Below are positions 1,523 to 19,785 of a stretch of DNA of 64,000 bases, one piece after another. The translations under genes were made by a program, and so were the position numbers. The DNA comes from an uncultured Myxococcales bacterium (lineage in GTDB: Bacteria > Myxococcota_A > UBA9042). The stretch covers positions 1 to 64,000 of the forward strand of contig CAITYF010000122.1 of assembly GCA_903896545.1 (NCBI GenBank). The letters run 5' to 3'. Positions within the stretch are counted from its first letter, which is position 1. The number at the start of each line of letters is the position of its first letter. Under the pieces are notes generated by a model. It had not been told where the DNA came from. It saw only the letters and a list, made by a program, of their open reading frames with translations, and did no database searches.

Positions 1523-2815
1523 TTAGCCGCGCAACCCCACCTCAGCATGCGCGGTCCCATCCAGCTGCCAACGCTGCTCGACGTGCCACGCGCCTTTCCG
1601 TCGATGCTCCAGAACGACCGTTGCATCCGCCCGCTCACTGTTGGTGCACGTTGCTGCGCGACCATCCGGGTCCTTGTACCCCACCACAACGCAGCGCTCC
1701 GGCGGCAGTGTCACGTGCACGTTCAGCCGCCGGTCGCCCACTTGGCCTTCCAGCTTCCACTCCGGCAGCGTCGTCTCGCAGCGAAACGCCGTGAGCGCCG
1801 CCACAAGCGGCATGGGCGGCCAATCTTGACCGCCAAAGCGAAGGCGCACAAACGGCAACGGCCGCAGGTTTTTCAGCCCCGGACGCGTCGACACGGCCGC
1901 CACGACATCCAACGCAGCGCCGTCGCCCAGATCCGCGTGCAGCCAGGTCCAGCGTTCCGCACTTCCGTGACCGTAAATCCGCGCCATGCCGGCGTTGCCC
2001 GCGAACAGCACCACTTCGCCGTCGACTTTCAGTTGCCCCGACCAGTGTGCTTGCGGGTCCAAAACCACCATCGCGCCAGGCAGCAGCTCCATTTCCCAGA
2101 GCCACCGCGGGAACACAAAAAGCGGCGGGGTGCGCAGCTTCTGTTGCAGTTGCCATTGGATCCGCGGCGTCTCGCCCTCCCACAGCGTTGGTCCCAGCGT
2201 GCAATCGCTCGTCGCAAACCAGTGCGTGCTCGTGTCGACCGCGTGCGGGCCGAAGTGGGCGATGACGGGCGCGCCCTTTACCGGGAAAAACGCTGCCCAG
2301 CCGTGCGCATACGCGGGCGCGTCGGGAGGCGAAACCGTCTCTGCGTGCAACCAAAGACCGTGGCCGGTCTGCGCGTCAGTCGCCGTTCCATACCACACCT
2401 CCTGGCGCAGCTTCTTGCCGTGCCAACGCGGCCACCCCAATTCCTGACCGTCCTTTAGATCCGGCGTACCCACCGCGAGTCCCCACAGGATCCAGATGGG
2501 GTAGGTGAGGAAAATGAGGAAAGAGAGGAGGTGCGTCAGCCAAGTCGGATGCCGGTAATCAAAGTGGAAAATGCCCGAGTTGAGCATCCAGTCGCGACCG
2601 GTTTCCGCGCCGCACATCTCCCAGAGCCAGCGCGTCCATTCGAGGTCGAAGTACAGCGAAACCGACGTGCCCCAGTACACAATCAACGTGACAATAACAG
2701 TGCCTTTCATCACAACTGGGCGGATGTGTACGCGTTGGCGTGAGAGGAGGAGACTCACGCACCAGCCAGTGAAGAGGAGCAGGAGGGGATCGAGAAGAAA
2801 GCTGTCGTACGGCAT
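1523..2815 (-). CDS. Membrane protein with CrtC/AttH-like C-terminal domain
   Basis: 430 residues. Three hydrophobic segments lie in the first 125 residues (near 5-25, 36-58 and 92-115). A soluble domain of about 290 residues follows, rich in Trp and in beta-strand patterns. A stretch near its middle (IYGHGSAERWTWLHADLG) resembles the lipocalin-like hydroxyneurosporene hydratase/AttH (CrtC-like) fold; this is a family-level resemblance recognised by eye. The ATG overlaps the stop of the upstream GMC oxidoreductase (TAATG), so translation is probably coupled and the two products likely act together, perhaps on a hydrophobic substrate at the membrane. A TTG two codons earlier is a weaker start. 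The reaction is not known. Confidence 0.6.
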   Translation of the reverse strand: MPYDSFLLDPLLLLFTGWCVSLLLSRQRVHIRPVVMKGTVIVTLIVYWGTSVSLYFDLEWTRWLWEMCGAETGRDWMLNSGIFHFDYRHPTWLTHLLSFLIFLTYPIWILWGLAVGTPDLKDGQELGWPRWHGKKLRQEVWYGTATDAQTGHGLWLHAETVSPPDAPAYAHGWAAFFPVKGAPVIAHFGPHAVDTSTHWFATSDCTLGPTLWEGETPRIQWQLQQKLRTPPLFVFPRWLWEMELLPGAMVVLDPQAHWSGQLKVDGEVVLFAGNAGMARIYGHGSAERWTWLHADLGDGAALDVVAAVSTRPGLKNLRPLPFVRLRFGGQDWPPMPLVAALTAFRCETTLPEWKLEGQVGDRRLNVHVTLPPERCVVVGYKDPDGRAATCTNSERADATVVLEHRRKGAWHVEQRWQLDGTAHAEVGLRG

Positions 2816-4743
2816 TACCAAGTCTCCAGAATGCGTTCAGCGGCGCGGTGGGCGAACGCCATGATGGTCACTTGCGGATTGACCGTGAGGGAAGTCGGAA
2901 AGACGCACGCGTCGCAAACGACGAGCCGTTCCATCCCATGGACCGCTCCCCACCCGTCGACGACGCCTTGCCCCGGCTCGCCGATGCGCGCCGTGCCCAT
3001 CGGGTGATACGCAGAGAGTTGGAGGCGCGAAGCGGGCCAATCGCGGGCGAAACAGGCGTCCACGTCGGCCTTGGAGCGCAGCCGACCGACGCCTTCCATC
3101 ATCGGCACGACTTCTTGTGCGCCCGCCGCGAAGAGAATCTCGCACGCCAACTTCATGCCCCGCAGCGTCTTGCGCCGATCGACGTCGTTCAGGTTGTAGA
3201 GCAGCAGCGGCGACCGTGCGCCACCCAAGTCGATGACGCGGCCCTCGGAGGTGTCGGAGACCAGCAGGCCCAGCGTCGCCAGCTGGCTGAAGTGACCCAA
3301 CAGTTGTTTGCGCTCCAGACCGGTCAACGTCATGCCCGCTTCCGCGTAGCCCAGACTCGGCGGCGGAAACGTCGCTTCCAGGAGAACACCTTCGTCGGCA
3401 AGCGTGTCCACGAGATAGCTCTGCAAGACGCCACGCCACGCGCGCACTTCGTGTTTGAAACGCCCCGTGACGCCGGTCGCCGGGTGAATCCGCAAGTGGC
3501 GTCCCAGATCCCGCGGGCGAATGCCCGACGCGCGCAAGAGCCCCGGTGAACCAATTGCGCCGGCCGCAACGACGACCCCGCGCTTGGCGTGTAACGTGAA
3601 CTGACCGGAAAGCGTGCCGTCCACCGCCCGGAAGCGTCCACGGACGCCGGTTGCGCGGGTTCCGGTGCGCAGGACCTCGTCGACGTGTGCTTGTGCGAAG
3701 ATGGTCGCGCCCGCTTCCACGGCTTGCGGCAGGTAGTTCAAGTGGACGCCGCGCTTGGCATCGACAGGACACCCCGCAGCGCATTGCCCCGCGCCGTGGC
3801 AGTTGGGCGCGTTGCGCGGCAGTGGACGGCCGGAAAGTCCCAGCGCATCGACGCCGCGGCGCACGGTTTCCGCGTTGCCGCCCATCACCGACCACGAGGC
3901 GGGCGCCACGCCCAAGGTTCGCTCCACCTCGGCGTAATGCGCACCCAGCGCGTCGGGCGGCATTTGACTGGCAAAGTCGCGCTGCCAACCTGCCGCAACG
4001 CGGTCGGGCGTGCGCAGACAGGTGCCCGAATTGACCACCGTCGTCCCGCCCACCGCGCGTCCCAGTGGCAACAGCACCGTTGGCTTGCCCAGCGTCATCG
4101 TCGCGCCCGCGTCCCGGTAGAGCAGCGGCATGCGGTCCAGCGGCGGTGCGGCGTATTCGTCGCGTGTGTGCGTGTCGCCTTCCTCCACGAGCGCCACCGA
4201 CCAGCCAGCCCGCGCCAAAGTCCGCGCCAGCGGCGCCGCGCCTGCGCCAGAACCGACGACGACGACGTCAAAATCTGCCTGAAAATAACGCGGTAGGTCC
4301 GGTGGCCGCTGCACCGGCAGGTGGTGGACAGGCGGCAACGGCTCCGCCAGCGGCACCTTTTGGCCATTGCCGACGTCCAGCAGTTCCACGACGCGCGGCG
4401 CCTCCAGATACGCGCCCATCGCCAGCATTTTGAGCGGCAGCAGCATGCGGGCGACCAACGGCGACGCGTTTTCCAGAGTGAGCAGCCACGCCGCGCGCTG
4501 AGCACGCGTGAGGTGTGAAAAGCGTGGCTGCACCTTCAGCCACGGCAGGTGTTCAAGCAACCAGAACGACATCTGCAGCAGGCGCTGGTGCAAGGGCGGC
4601 AGGTGTTCCAGGAGCGCGACAATGCGCGTGCCCACGTCGAGGTCTGCGGCGCCGGGCAGCGGATCGCCCGCGCCTTCATCGGCTGGCGGCAAGAGCGCGT
4701 CCGCGGCGGCGGCGAGAAAAGCGTGGAGCGGGGTCGGGCGCAT
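2815..4743 (-). CDS. GMC-family oxidoreductase (long-chain alcohol/sterol oxidase-like)
   Basis: 642-residue FAD-dependent oxidoreductase. An N-terminal helical region of about 155 residues precedes the dinucleotide-binding motif VVVVGSGAGAAPLA near residue 160. The glycine-rich GRAVGGTTVVNSG element follows, then a cysteine cluster (CHGAGQCAAGC) typical of the long-chain alcohol oxidase and cholesterol-oxidase-like branch. The C-terminal GMC signature contains YHPMGTARIG and SLTVNPQVTIM. Such enzymes oxidise primary alcohols or sterols. No signal peptide is visible. The ATG at 4743 is preceded by GAGG at 5-base spacing; a GTG two codons upstream is possible. It is translationally coupled to the following membrane protein. 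The substrate cannot be told from sequence. Confidence 0.87.
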   Translation of the reverse strand: MRPTPLHAFLAAAADALLPPADEGAGDPLPGAADLDVGTRIVALLEHLPPLHQRLLQMSFWLLEHLPWLKVQPRFSHLTRAQRAAWLLTLENASPLVARMLLPLKMLAMGAYLEAPRVVELLDVGNGQKVPLAEPLPPVHHLPVQRPPDLPRYFQADFDVVVVGSGAGAAPLARTLARAGWSVALVEEGDTHTRDEYAAPPLDRMPLLYRDAGATMTLGKPTVLLPLGRAVGGTTVVNSGTCLRTPDRVAAGWQRDFASQMPPDALGAHYAEVERTLGVAPASWSVMGGNAETVRRGVDALGLSGRPLPRNAPNCHGAGQCAAGCPVDAKRGVHLNYLPQAVEAGATIFAQAHVDEVLRTGTRATGVRGRFRAVDGTLSGQFTLHAKRGVVVAAGAIGSPGLLRASGIRPRDLGRHLRIHPATGVTGRFKHEVRAWRGVLQSYLVDTLADEGVLLEATFPPPSLGYAEAGMTLTGLERKQLLGHFSQLATLGLLVSDTSEGRVIDLGGARSPLLLYNLNDVDRRKTLRGMKLACEILFAAGAQEVVPMMEGVGRLRSKADVDACFARDWPASRLQLSAYHPMGTARIGEPGQGVVDGWGAVHGMERLVVCDACVFPTSLTVNPQVTIMAFAHRAAERILETW

Positions 4744-5022
4744 GGACACCTCAACGCGTGAACCTCCACGAGTCTGGTCTCGAAGCGCACGGACTTCAAG
4801 CGTCGCCGCGTCTGACGTTTTGCGTTGTCGTCGGCGCCTCCGATGGGCCGCAGGCGTCGGGCACGCTCCATGACATGATGTTGAGATGTAAAGATCTGTA
4901 AGTCCATGAAGGTGTGAGAATTCAGCCGCTGCGACGCAGTTTTAGAACGCCGGAGGCCTTGTTCCTGCGTGTCTCAAGACTACGCTTCCGGGTCGATACG
5001 ATTTCGCCTTGGGAGGGCGGCA

Positions 5023-6027
5023 ATGGTGTTCAAATTTAGCACGTTTCTGCTCCTCGCCCCGTTGTGCGCGTGCCAAGCAGTCGCGTCGTCTGCGGGAACG
5101 CCAAACGCTGAGACTGCATCGGACGCGCAGGTCGATACCGAGTCGATGGATGCTGACGCGCATGATGCCTGTCCCGCGGTCAACTGTTTGGGCAGCCCGG
5201 ACGGCGATGCATCGTCTGCACAGGGGGAAGACAGCGCTGCCGGTGGGCACGACGCGATGACGACGGCGAACGACGTTGCGGGCCTTGCCGCGAAAGATCC
5301 CGCCTTTGATGCGCCGATGGATCCCAACGTTGATCAGCTGATGCAGGTCCCAGCGTCGGAAATCGACCTGTCCAAGGACTTTGTGCTGACGCCGGACACG
5401 GTGGTCCCCGTTTTGCAGAACTTCTACGCGTGGGGGTTGCAGCCGGGGCAACAGGTTCCCGATTTCACGCTGTGGTCGCTGGAGGGCAAGCTCGTTTCGC
5501 TGAGCGATTGGAAGAACAAGTCGAACGTGCTCGTGGTGATGGGAACGCCGTCGTGCGGCGAATTTCGCAACTCGTTCAGGCCGCGGTTGCCCGCGTTTCA
5601 GGCGTACGTCGACGCCATCACAGCGCAGACTGGTGAAAAGCTGCAAGTGCTCTTGGTGTTGAATAAGGAAGCGCACCCGGCGATCGATCCGAGTCCGTAC
5701 GTCGGTGTCCAATGGACGGGAGCGGACAACGTGGCGGACAAGATTCTGGTGCGGCAGCCGACCACCTACGGCACGCGCGTGCTCAACGGGCGTGCGTACG
5801 TGCAGCGCTACAAGATGAACGCGGCGCAGTTTCTCGTCGATGGGATGGACAACGCGGTGTGGCAGCAGTTCGGGCAGCTTTCCAACACTGCGCATCTGAT
5901 CGACAAGAATGGCGTGCTGGTTTGGAAGGAGCCGTGGGCGCTGCAGGCCGGAAAGTCGGAGCAAGACCCGACCGTCAAACCGGAATTGTACGCTCAGGTC
6001 GCCAAGTTGCTGGGCGCGAAGCCGTAG
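5023..6027 (+). CDS. Deiodinase-like thioredoxin-fold lipoprotein (Cys form)
   Basis: 334 residues. A signal peptide ends at a lipobox-like site (LCAC), followed by an Asp/Ala/Ser-rich linker of about 70 residues and a thioredoxin-fold domain. Three points match iodothyronine-deiodinase-family proteins: the active-site loop GTPSCGEFR, where the Cys falls where deiodinases carry selenocysteine; the EAHP motif after the next strand; and a late LVDGMDN segment followed by HLIDKNGVLVWK. AhpC/TSA-like redoxins are the alternative. The function is probably a periplasmic or surface thiol redox step; iodine chemistry should not be assumed. The ATG at 5023 has GGGAGG upstream; the longer frame from 4969 lacks a good signal peptide. 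It converges on the peroxidase gene, 36 bases away. Confidence 0.7.
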   Translation: MVFKFSTFLLLAPLCACQAVASSAGTPNAETASDAQVDTESMDADAHDACPAVNCLGSPDGDASSAQGEDSAAGGHDAMTTANDVAGLAAKDPAFDAPMDPNVDQLMQVPASEIDLSKDFVLTPDTVVPVLQNFYAWGLQPGQQVPDFTLWSLEGKLVSLSDWKNKSNVLVVMGTPSCGEFRNSFRPRLPAFQAYVDAITAQTGEKLQVLLVLNKEAHPAIDPSPYVGVQWTGADNVADKILVRQPTTYGTRVLNGRAYVQRYKMNAAQFLVDGMDNAVWQQFGQLSNTAHLIDKNGVLVWKEPWALQAGKSEQDPTVKPELYAQVAKLLGAKP

Positions 6028-6063: not shown

Positions 6064-7269
6064 CTATGGCGCGACCAACTCGGTCGCGGCCGACGGGCAA
6101 TCGAGCGCGTGGAGGAAGGCGACCAGGTCGTCCAATTCGTCATCGGGCACGAACACGCCTTGCAGCTGAGGGTCCAGCGCGCCGATCGTCGCGTTCCTGC
6201 CGTCGCGTCCGCCGTCCCGTCCACCCCTGCCGTTCCGGTAGATGTCCTCGATGAAGCCACGCAGCGTCTCCTGGTGGGACGCGTGGCCAAAGAACGTGCG
6301 CTGTCCGGCGCCGCGCAGGCTTGGCGTCTTGAAGGCGCCCGTGGTCGCGGTCTCGGTTGCCGCTTCTGCGAGCTTGACCTGGCCGCTCGTGGTGTCGTCT
6401 GAAAAGAGTCCGGCGCCATTGAAGACGTCGCTCAGCAGTTGCGGGAGGCCTGCCTCACGTCCCGGATCCGTCGAAGGAACGCCGATGTTGTGGAACTCGC
6501 CGTCCGAGAACGCCGGTCCGCTGTGGCAACGCGCGCAACGGTGCTCGACGAACGACCTTGCGCCATTTTCTTCCGCCGTGGTTAGAGACGCCTCGCCGCG
6601 CACCCACTTGTCAAACTTGGTGTCCGCGCAAATCAGCTTGCGTTCGTACGCCTCGAGGGCCTTGCCGACGTTGGCACCGACGCGGTCGATGTCCTCCTGC
6701 GTCGCTGTGGGAAGGGCATCCCACTCCGTCATCCCCGGCTTACCGCGCGTCGGCGTCACATCGAGCTGCGGGAGCACGCCAAAAATCGCCTCGTATTCGT
6801 TGCGGTAGCGGTCGGCAATCACGCGAACCAGCTCCAAACGCGTCAGGTCCATCTCGCGCGGGTTCTCGATTGCCTTCAGCGGCTGCGCCCAAACGGAGTC
6901 GGCGCGACCGTCCCACAGTGTGAACCGCTGGAACGCCGCCGCCGTGATCGGCATCGCGTGGCGCCCACCGAGTTGACCGCGTACGCCGACGGAGAATGCC
7001 CGCGGGTCGGAGAAGCCGTGGTCCGGTGAGTGGCAGCTTGCGCAGGCAATCGTCGCGTCGACGCTCAAGTGCTTGTCAAAGAACAGCCGTTGACCCAGCG
7101 CGGCGGCCGACGCGTTGTTCGCAAACGCGTTGGTCGGCGACTCTGGCAGCATTTTTGCCGTCAGTTCTTGGGAGTTGAGCTCAGTCAAGTCGACCGTGCC
7201 GTTGCAAGCGCTCAGCGCGAGTACAAGCGCCAGCAGGAAGCAGAGAAGGTGCGAGGGGTGCTGCGTCAT
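6064..7269 (-). CDS. Di-haem cytochrome c peroxidase (MauG/CcpA family) lipoprotein
   Basis: 401 residues. The signal peptide ends in a lipobox (ALSAC, Cys22), so the protein should be anchored in the periplasm or outer membrane. Two CxxCH haem c motifs are present: CASCH at 76-80 and CARCH at 245-249, the usual spacing for bacterial cytochrome c peroxidases and MauG-like proteins. LGQRLFFDKHLS before haem 1 and KTPSLRGAGQRTFFGH late in the protein are family features. A Gly/Arg/Asp-rich insert (RNGRGGRDGGRDGRN) lies near the C-terminus. It would reduce H2O2 or oxidise a substrate with electrons from a small cytochrome. The ATG has GGAGG five bases upstream. It lies 93 bases after the anti-sigma gene and may belong to that operon. 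Confidence 0.92.
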   Translation of the reverse strand: MTQHPSHLLCFLLALVLALSACNGTVDLTELNSQELTAKMLPESPTNAFANNASAAALGQRLFFDKHLSVDATIACASCHSPDHGFSDPRAFSVGVRGQLGGRHAMPITAAAFQRFTLWDGRADSVWAQPLKAIENPREMDLTRLELVRVIADRYRNEYEAIFGVLPQLDVTPTRGKPGMTEWDALPTATQEDIDRVGANVGKALEAYERKLICADTKFDKWVRGEASLTTAEENGARSFVEHRCARCHSGPAFSDGEFHNIGVPSTDPGREAGLPQLLSDVFNGAGLFSDDTTSGQVKLAEAATETATTGAFKTPSLRGAGQRTFFGHASHQETLRGFIEDIYRNGRGGRDGGRDGRNATIGALDPQLQGVFVPDDELDDLVAFLHALDCPSAATELVAP

Positions 7270-18538: not shown

Positions 18539-18696
18539 TCGCAGGGTAGCATGTTCAACGGGTCGCACGCACGCGGGAACGGCAAAGGAGCCGTGAAATT
18601 CTGAGGGTTCTGCCGCGCCCGCGCATACAGCGTGACAAAGCCGTCTGATGCCGTTACGTTGCCATGCTGCGCGGTCACGCGATGCAGGTTTACGCC

Positions 18697-19785
18697 ATGA
18701 CGAATACTCCAGAAGCGCAGCGTCCTCCTTTGCCTCGCCTGACGGAATTGTCGGCGACAGCAGGCTGTGCTGCGAAGATCGGCCAGGCCGACTTGCACCG
18801 TGCGCTCTCGCATTTGCCGCAGCACGCGGACCCGCGCCTTGTCGTGGGCCACGCGACGAGCGATGACGCGGCGGTCTACCAGCTGTCCGACGATATTGCG
18901 TTGGTCGAAACGGTCGACATCTTTACGCCGATTGTCGATAACCCCTACGATTACGGACGGATCGCCGCGGCAAACGCGCTGAGCGACGTCTATGCGATGG
19001 GTGCGCGGCCGATTTCGGCCCTGTCTTTCATCGCTTGGCCGATGGCCGAACGCGGTCCCGAAGAGTTGGGAGAGATTCTGCGTGGCGCGGCGGATGTCTG
19101 CAAACTCGCTGAAATTGTCATTGCAGGCGGACATTCGATCGTCGACAAGGAGCCGAAATTCGGTCTCTTTGTCACAGGTTTGTCGCACCCAAAGGCGATT
19201 GTGACCAACGCTGGCGGACGTCCGGGTGACGTGCTTGTGCTGACCAAACCGATTGGGACGGGCGTGTTGACGACTGCGGTAAAGCGCGGCGCGATGGCGC
19301 CTGAGGACCTGCGTCAAGCGATTGAGTCGATGGCGTCGCTGAATCGGGCGGCGTGCGCGGCGATGTTGGCTGTTGGCGTGCAAGCGTGCACCGATGTGAC
19401 CGGATTTGGCCTGCTTGGCCACCTTGGCAACGTACTCAGGGCGTCCAGCATCGCGCGCGGGCAGGCCATCGGCGCGCGTTTGCACATCGATGAGATTCCG
19501 TGGTTGGACCACGCCGTGGACATGGCGGCGGACAACATTTGCCCTGGCGGTTCGCGGCGCAATCTGGAATATGCCGCGCCGAACGTCAGCTTTTCCGCGT
19601 CCATTCCGACCCACATGCAGCTGTTGATGGCCGACGCGCAGACGTCAGGCGGGCTGCTCATCGCGGTTGCGCCCAAGAAGCTCGATGCCCTGCTGATGGA
19701 ACTGTCGCAGCGGGATGTGGCCGTGCGCGCCGTCATTGGCGAACTGCTCGCGGTGGACGACCCCGGCGCCATCGCAGTTGTGTGA
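18697..19785 (+). CDS. selD: Selenide, water dikinase (selenophosphate synthetase), Cys form
   Basis: 362 residues, the family length. SelD makes selenophosphate from selenide and ATP for selenocysteine tRNA or 2-selenouridine synthesis. The catalytic loop TAGCAAKIGQ keeps Cys24 and Lys27, equivalent to E. coli Cys17 and Lys20; the second loop cysteine of E. coli is Ala here. The Cys is encoded by TGT, not TGA. Other signatures are DDAAVY, the DIFTPIVDNPYDYGRIAAANALSDVYAMG block and TDVTGFGLLGHL. The ATG at 18697 places the catalytic loop at the usual distance; ATGs at 18664 and 18682 are possible. No selA, selB or tRNA-Sec is in the window. It diverges from the IPT/TIG gene. Confidence 0.95.
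   Translation: MTNTPEAQRPPLPRLTELSATAGCAAKIGQADLHRALSHLPQHADPRLVVGHATSDDAAVYQLSDDIALVETVDIFTPIVDNPYDYGRIAAANALSDVYAMGARPISALSFIAWPMAERGPEELGEILRGAADVCKLAEIVIAGGHSIVDKEPKFGLFVTGLSHPKAIVTNAGGRPGDVLVLTKPIGTGVLTTAVKRGAMAPEDLRQAIESMASLNRAACAAMLAVGVQACTDVTGFGLLGHLGNVLRASSIARGQAIGARLHIDEIPWLDHAVDMAADNICPGGSRRNLEYAAPNVSFSASIPTHMQLLMADAQTSGGLLIAVAPKKLDALLMELSQRDVAVRAVIGELLAVDDPGAIAVV

Follow-up and report, generated by a model that had tools for sequence, protein, structure and literature searches.

The gene at positions 5023–6027 (+ strand) of the 64,000-nucleotide stretch of DNA analysed here (the window) encodes P0001, a 334-residue Cys-form deiodinase-like protein that is probably a lipoprotein. 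As judged by profile and tree comparisons, P0001 is a bacterial relative of the iodothyronine deiodinases, yet it is not a classic deiodinase. Our reading, to which we give a probability of roughly 0.58, is that it acts as a surface-anchored 1-Cys thiol oxidoreductase and, outside the cytoplasm, reduces a small molecule of electrophilic character. The family, the Cys at the selenocysteine (Sec) position, the conserved anchor residues, the Sec machinery of the genome and the absence of the clamp are direct results of the computation; export, the nucleophile, the class of substrate and the reductant are inferred.

Gene layout, family and fold

The open reading frame is intact, running from the ATG at 5023 to the stop codon at 6025–6027 (+), and it carries in frame the motifs SCGEFR, EAHP and LVDGMDN, as the sequence-only reading had reported. 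The most upstream start in this frame is a GTG at 4969; a probable ribosome-binding site, GGGAGGG (5011–5017, +), lies 5 nt before the ATG at 5023. A crude motif check suggests a signal peptide with the lipobox-like sequence LCAC at residues 14–17 (5023–5073, +), which departs slightly from the consensus in having Cys at −2. There follow an Asp-rich linker (residues 18–130; 5074–5412, +) containing Cys50 and Cys55, the latter shared with a 69% paralogue in the same genome (G000:C108), and a thioredoxin-type deiodinase-like domain (residues 131–334; 5413–6024, +) delimited from alignment, an AlphaFold2 model and VIA-align. Residues 18–100 include 16 acidic residues against one basic residue, and the cysteines are at positions 15, 17, 50, 55 and 178, with Cys178 alone within the domain. 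P0001 is probably exported and lipid-anchored, and the secreted lipoprotein layout with an Asp-rich linker that was proposed earlier is likewise probable.

Comparison of residues 94–334 of P0001 with the paralogue gave a dN of 0.17 and a dS of 1.41 by NG86 (0.18 and 1.21 by LWL85), a dN/dS of approximately 0.12 to 0.15; on these estimates the region is under purifying selection between this genome's two copies. The GC3 of P0001 (0.782) lies between the extremes of the ten other window genes for which it was determined (0.735–0.868), so there is no sign of a recent foreign origin.

PF00837, a profile suggested earlier as a check of the family, does not match P0001: a Pfam search returned no row for it up to an E-value of 10, and a search of the genome with the same profile gave 0 matches, the controls in that search being likewise unmatched. 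AhpC-TSA (PF00578), the second profile suggested, matches weakly at 22.0 bits (domain alone, 23.7; gathering score 26), as does Redoxin (PF08534) at 23.7 bits (domain alone, 25.7; gathering score 26.6); both matches are below the gathering scores and limited to residues 140–193. The NCBIfam model NF038285 ('deiodinase family protein') scores P0001 at 63.7 bits (E = 2e-17; cut-off 250) over residues 140–304, corresponding to model positions 177–328 of 347. Among the relatives, PF00837 gives 119.4 and 130.9 bits for two classic Sec rows, 60.6 bits for a Sec protein of a second branch (L052) and 26.1 bits, just below the cut-off of 27, for L062, a member of the same clade as P0001.

Against a profile of eight clade members, from which P0001 and its paralogue had been left out, P0001 scored 102.0 bits; the corresponding values were 64.4 bits for the second branch (three Sec and three Cys rows), 52.3 bits for 12 classic Sec deiodinases and 15.7 bits for seven redoxins. 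Shuffled P0001 domains reached at most 5.0 bits across the profiles. With 200 shuffles of residues 95–334 and the classic Sec profile, 104 were reported and the best scored 2.8 bits, and the best shuffled copy on the redoxin profile scored 4.5 bits. The deiodinase match, at 52.3 against 2.8 bits, is therefore not due to chance. Alignment of the clade of ten with the classic Sec deiodinases using hhalign gave 99.9% (E = 4.1e-37), and an hmmsearch of the PDB with the ten-row clade profile placed mouse Dio3 (8.3e-14) and Dio2 (1.7e-12) first, with the best redoxin at 1.3e-7. A PDB search with P0001 as a single sequence returned redoxins only, and these weakly (best 4.5e-4).

The structural model of the active-site domain that had been proposed was made with AlphaFold2 from 30 aligned sequences (residues 94–334; mean pLDDT 84.7, pTM 0.84). 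The model aligns best in VIA-align with Dio3 (Z = 18.0 over 166 residues) and Dio2 (17.3), followed by DsbE (15.7). Foldseek also places Dio2 and Dio3 at the top, by a narrow margin over exported thioredoxins. With the paralogue as the sole companion sequence the pLDDT was 36. Because the alignment behind the model included deiodinase-like rows and the two-row control did not fold, it is the sequence evidence that counts as independent.

Relatives were sought in 377 genomes of the phylum, themselves drawn from a larger group. Up to five first-look candidates per genome were scored in the NF038285 search and up to eight in the clade-profile search, so the counts from both are lower bounds. At 1e-6, NF038285 matched at least 84 genomes, many of the rows having one in-frame TGA; several genomes have two to four deiodinase-like matches. 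Part of the matches were aligned, giving 56 domains (49 deiodinase-like and seven redoxins), a set which leans to deiodinase-like proteins through its selection with NF038285. Two sequences were kept out of the tree: L053, which is incomplete with two in-frame stops, and L072, which is without the active-site half. The 49 deiodinase-like rows separate from the seven redoxins with support of 100/99, and P0001 and its paralogue fall in an all-Cys clade of ten rows (support 92/77, not starred). The stem of this pair is long (2.01) and the tree program flags the letter make-up of P0001 as odd; its exact position is therefore less sure than its place on the deiodinase side.

The alternative that P0001 is an ordinary periplasmic thioredoxin or ResA-like disulfide exchanger that merely resembles deiodinases draws on the weak Redoxin and AhpC-TSA matches, the redoxins found by the single-sequence PDB search, a redoxin-profile score above that of the shuffled copies, the closeness of ResA/DsbE in Z and the narrow Foldseek lead of Dio2 and Dio3. 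Such an exchanger is quite improbable, given that P0001 has no CxxC motif (the residues are CGEF, with a single Cys in the domain), that the redoxin profile gives 15.7 bits against 52–102 bits for the deiodinase-like sets, that the tree split from the redoxins is supported at 100/99 and that the clade profile, among the up to eight first-look candidates scored per genome, returned none of the seven outgroup redoxins at 1e-8. As a family assignment, the ordinary redoxin is largely refuted by these scores, the sub-threshold Pfam matches and the split, and it was rejected. The outcome that would speak against the sequence-only reading had been named there: ordinary redoxins as the clear best match, with the deiodinase C-terminal segment lacking. 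Profiles, tree and structure favour the deiodinases; the single-sequence PDB search yet finds only redoxins, and weakly, and the C-terminal segment is absent. The kinship to iodothyronine deiodinases itself stands, on the evidence of NF038285, the profiles, hhalign, the tree, the PDB profile search and the structure.

The active site and the Cys clade

Cys178, encoded by TGC at 5554–5556 (+), occupies the Sec position, where helix α1 begins, as placed by the tree, the alignments and the model. Its column is an in-frame TGA in 35 of the 49 deiodinase-like rows and Cys in the other 14, which confirms the earlier call of Cys at the Sec position. For the 49 rows the best tree needs four switches between the Sec and Cys states, of which only two are forced by well-supported branches. 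The column is invariant in alignment A1, with TGA read as Cys, and in the ten-row clade alignment A2.

A search of the 377 genomes with the clade profile at 1e-8 listed at least 73 rows in at least 56 genomes. The ten members score 222–270 bits, by construction since the profile is alignment A2 of the same ten, and after a gap the remaining 63 rows score 101 bits or less. By a hand count, in which some genes contribute two rows, 54 of these 63 have one TGA and nine have none. Three of the nine are C-terminal pieces (G319:C160:14093, G063:C95:23815 and G305:C726:1438) of genes in which the first piece has the TGA, the matches in G038 and G316 stop short of the active site, and four are Cys forms (G372, G261, G319:C166 and G138). 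The all-Cys clade of ten comprises at least ten genes in at least nine of the 377 genomes. Across 52 genomes of the class, its own included, a search with P0001 found P0001 itself, the paralogue, a truncated relative in G038 and, in G026, one weak match resembling a redoxin, and nothing else.

The 45 nt after the TGA fold into a hairpin in 11 of 11 Sec relatives, and the same stretch of P0001 gives a hairpin too (−11.6). As the Cys form behaves alike, the hairpins were not used as SECIS evidence. Two convergent Sec deiodinase matches are present at G280:C238:16534–17689, and a similar convergent pair is possible at G055:C473:144–1140, where the second match is partial. By eye, the deiodinase-like domain of L059:145–2031 is fused to an EF-hand-like insert and to a tail similar to thioredoxin; in L021:1162–3807 EF-hands lie ahead of the deiodinase-like domain.

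The pairing of P0001 with Dio3 and the P0001 numbering come from the present alignment, and the roles of the loop-anchor residues in Dio3 are as given in passages of PMC7506546 and PMC11592359. Thr175, Ser177 and Cys178 align with Ser167, Thr169 and Sec170 of Dio3. The EAHP motif (5668–5679, +) provides Glu216, His218 and Pro219 as counterparts of Glu200, His202 and Pro203 (numbering as in a passage of PMC7506546), and Arg252 (5776–5778, +) corresponds to Arg225 (EDRV) of Dio3. Cys178, Glu216, His218, Pro219 and Arg252 are invariant in all ten clade rows. Cys178 is without a following Pro, the sequence being SCGEF as against TCPxF/TUPPF. Counterparts of Dio3 Tyr197, His219, Tyr257, Phe258, Glu259, Arg260 and Arg275 are absent from P0001 in the alignment. 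The classic deiodinase C-terminal segment, which the sequence-only reading had treated as a mark of the family, is also missing: past LVDGMDN, SNTAHLI...KEPW stands in place of ERLY...GGxGP. Substrates of the thyroid-hormone type are unlikely, given the loss of both the ERLY/GGxGP segment and the thyronine clamp; with the loop anchor kept and the hormone clamp lost, we therefore read P0001 as a thiol enzyme acting on some other substrate.

Were P0001 a true extracellular reductive dehalogenase, Cys178 would remove the iodine or bromine of halogenated phenols or of further organohalides in the manner of the animal enzymes. The closest solved relatives are indeed deiodinases, the loop anchor on which Dio activity depends is retained and a non-selenoprotein deiodinase of amphioxus has been reported to be active on triac (Klootwijk 2011, as cited in a passage of PMC8699336). 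We nevertheless consider this unlikely, because neither the seven Dio3 residues named above nor GGxGP has a counterpart, and a dehalogenase gene was sought and not found among the Pfam-scanned neighbours (20 proteins from the relatives, the paralogue, the tRNA-Sec contig and the window, covering the surroundings of part of the clade, with neighbour genes called by a crude script).

By eye, each of the ten Cys-clade proteins has the look of an exported or lipid-anchored protein. In eight of the ten the crude check flagged a hydrophobic stretch ahead of the domain, the exceptions being the paralogue, with the sequence LYAC, and L064, which has a lipobox-like site; the stretch flagged in L051 possibly precedes the true start. 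Signal or anchor sequences are seen, on the same reading, in the Sec forms L031, L039, L040, L044, L049, L059, L066 and L068 as well, and export and Cys are therefore only loosely linked. In the first five of these Sec deiodinases the hydrophobic stretch is N-terminal, a layout like that of the animal deiodinases.

A lipoprotein homologue from the same family of genomes (L072:1946–2686; G038:C907) lacks the active-site half, its acidic linker continuing in frame directly into the EAHP half. It could be a pseudo-enzyme, a deletion or an assembly fault, as it is seen on a single contig of a fragmented genome; with the active-site half missing, the half that remains there may be non-catalytic. 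This homologue and the patchy spread of the clade are what one might expect if P0001 were a binding or sensing protein (for metal or haem, or as a thiol switch) in which the fold serves no turnover. We regard that as very unlikely in view of the invariance of Cys178, Glu216, His218 and Arg252 and the purifying selection on the domain, and L072 may itself reflect faulty assembly.

Selenium machinery and gene neighbourhood

The selD gene (selenide, water dikinase; 18664–19785, +) noted earlier in the window is verified by TIGR00476 (372.7 bits, cut-off 125) and forms a separate locus. The selenium metabolism that it implied is corroborated by the three further components proposed for a search, all of which were found in the genome: a tRNA-Sec with the anticodon TCA, selA (482.7 bits) and selB (268 bits). 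With this set present, a lost Sec machinery does not account for the Cys of P0001. The machinery is complete, yet selenoproteins were not found among the FdhA matches and 30 AhpC-TSA matches of the genome, in which an in-frame TGA was sought. At L070:12116–13598 (G000:C185) the tRNA-Sec gene is directly followed by an ORF that by eye resembles an integrase, as if the tRNA gene were the target of an integrative element.

P0001 is flanked by a divergent upstream gene for a GMC oxidoreductase (2815–4749, −; Pfam) and a convergent downstream gene for a MauG/CCP-type di-haem protein (6064–7269, −; PF03150, 1.2e-41). The sequence-only reading had linked P0001 to the latter. The di-haem gene is real, but the partnership is unsupported, as the two genes converge and tblastn found no relative of the di-haem protein within 18 kb around the paralogue; it was set aside as a supported link. 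The paralogue is adjoined by genes for a prolyl oligopeptidase and an alpha/beta hydrolase.

A GMC gene adjoins P0001 in the window and another lies approximately 2.7 kb downstream of the paralogue (L071:12321–13835; G000:C108). Identity between the two GMC proteins is only 34%, the genome has at least ten GMC matches and, by rough post hoc arithmetic, the chance of one falling in the 18 kb around the paralogue is about 1/40; GMC near both copies is a weak lead. Some GMC-family enzymes make H2O2. The GMC gene of the window is found at 79–81% in all four other species of the genus and P0001 in none of them, which counts against our main reading, the context giving at most the GMC lead. In the three relatives compared for synteny (the fourth, at a contig end, was left out) the GMC gene and the gene before it are kept. 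Each of the three has different content on the side of P0001, and the synteny is therefore uninformative about when P0001 arrived.

Elsewhere in the clade, L062 and L065, from two species of one genus, have three neighbours in common; outside it, neighbours are weakly shared by L067 with L055 and by L054 with L058. At L063:2918–5556 a DUF3604 gene overlaps the end of the Cys-clade gene by 4 bases, which suggests that the two are on one transcript.

Proposed reaction and comparison with known systems

As a surface-anchored thiol oxidoreductase, P0001 would be exported and held at the membrane through a lipid on Cys17, and its C-terminal deiodinase-type thioredoxin fold would represent a branch beside the bacterial Sec deiodinases, not an ordinary redoxin. 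Cys178 would be the nucleophile, placed by the kept loop anchor (the adjacent Ser/Thr, Glu216, His218 and Arg252). Its thiolate may attack an electrophile, most likely a peroxide, another oxidant or an activated halogen species, and would be left as a sulfenic acid, a sulfenyl halide or a mixed disulfide. Because the domain is without a second Cys, the reductant that returns Cys178 to the thiol would be an outside thiol or linker Cys55.

A more specific proposal, which we find quite doubtful, is that a Cys-only surface-anchored deiodinase branch in one phylum reduces extracellular halogen oxidants or organohalides and has the sulfur form despite the Sec machinery. If so, deiodinase chemistry would have served extracellular halogen and oxidant detoxification in bacteria, apart from hormones. 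Expression of a Cys form does not require Sec insertion, and the branch is therefore convenient for testing the role of the family beyond thyroid hormone; its single-Cys domain and conserved anchor make it a handy test case for family function, and the phylum is also rich in Sec forms, making a direct comparison of Sec with Cys possible.

Bacterial deiodinase-like proteins in Sec and Cys forms were described in 2005 from the Sargasso Sea, with a redox role suggested as possible (in a passage of PMC1088965). The family is listed, with no function given, in passages of reviews from 2022 and 2026, the later one grouping it with families of largely open function, and the cited passages hold no tested function for these proteins. 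A paper on the exported, clamp-less Cys branch was not found in the openly licensed literature. The kind being known from 2005, this branch is a variant.

P0001 has the fold family in common with the bacterial deiodinase-like selenoproteins (PF00837; a passage of PMC1088965), Cys178 aligning with the Sec of the relatives, and the EAHP and VDGMD region is common to P0001 and the relatives studied here. It differs from them in its exported lipoprotein layout with an Asp-rich linker, in scores under the PF00837 and NF038285 cut-offs and in the replacement of ERLY/GGxGP by a segment ending in Trp. The NF038285 family is matched only over part of its model and far below the cut-off score. Exported redoxins of the ResA/DsbE/Etrx type have a CxxC active site. 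P0001 shares with them the thioredoxin fold and would probably share export or lipid anchoring, and it differs in its single domain Cys and in the EAHP motif, which is absent from the six aligned redoxins inspected. The animal enzymes Dio2 and Dio3 (9h48 and 4tr3) are the best PDB matches by clade profile and structure. Counterparts of Glu200, His202, Arg225, Ser167 (as Thr) and Thr169 (as Ser) are kept in P0001, whereas Sec is replaced by Cys and Tyr197, His219, Arg260, Arg275 and the clamp are lost. A thyronine substrate is accordingly not expected, and a predicted lipid anchor takes the place of the transmembrane helix.
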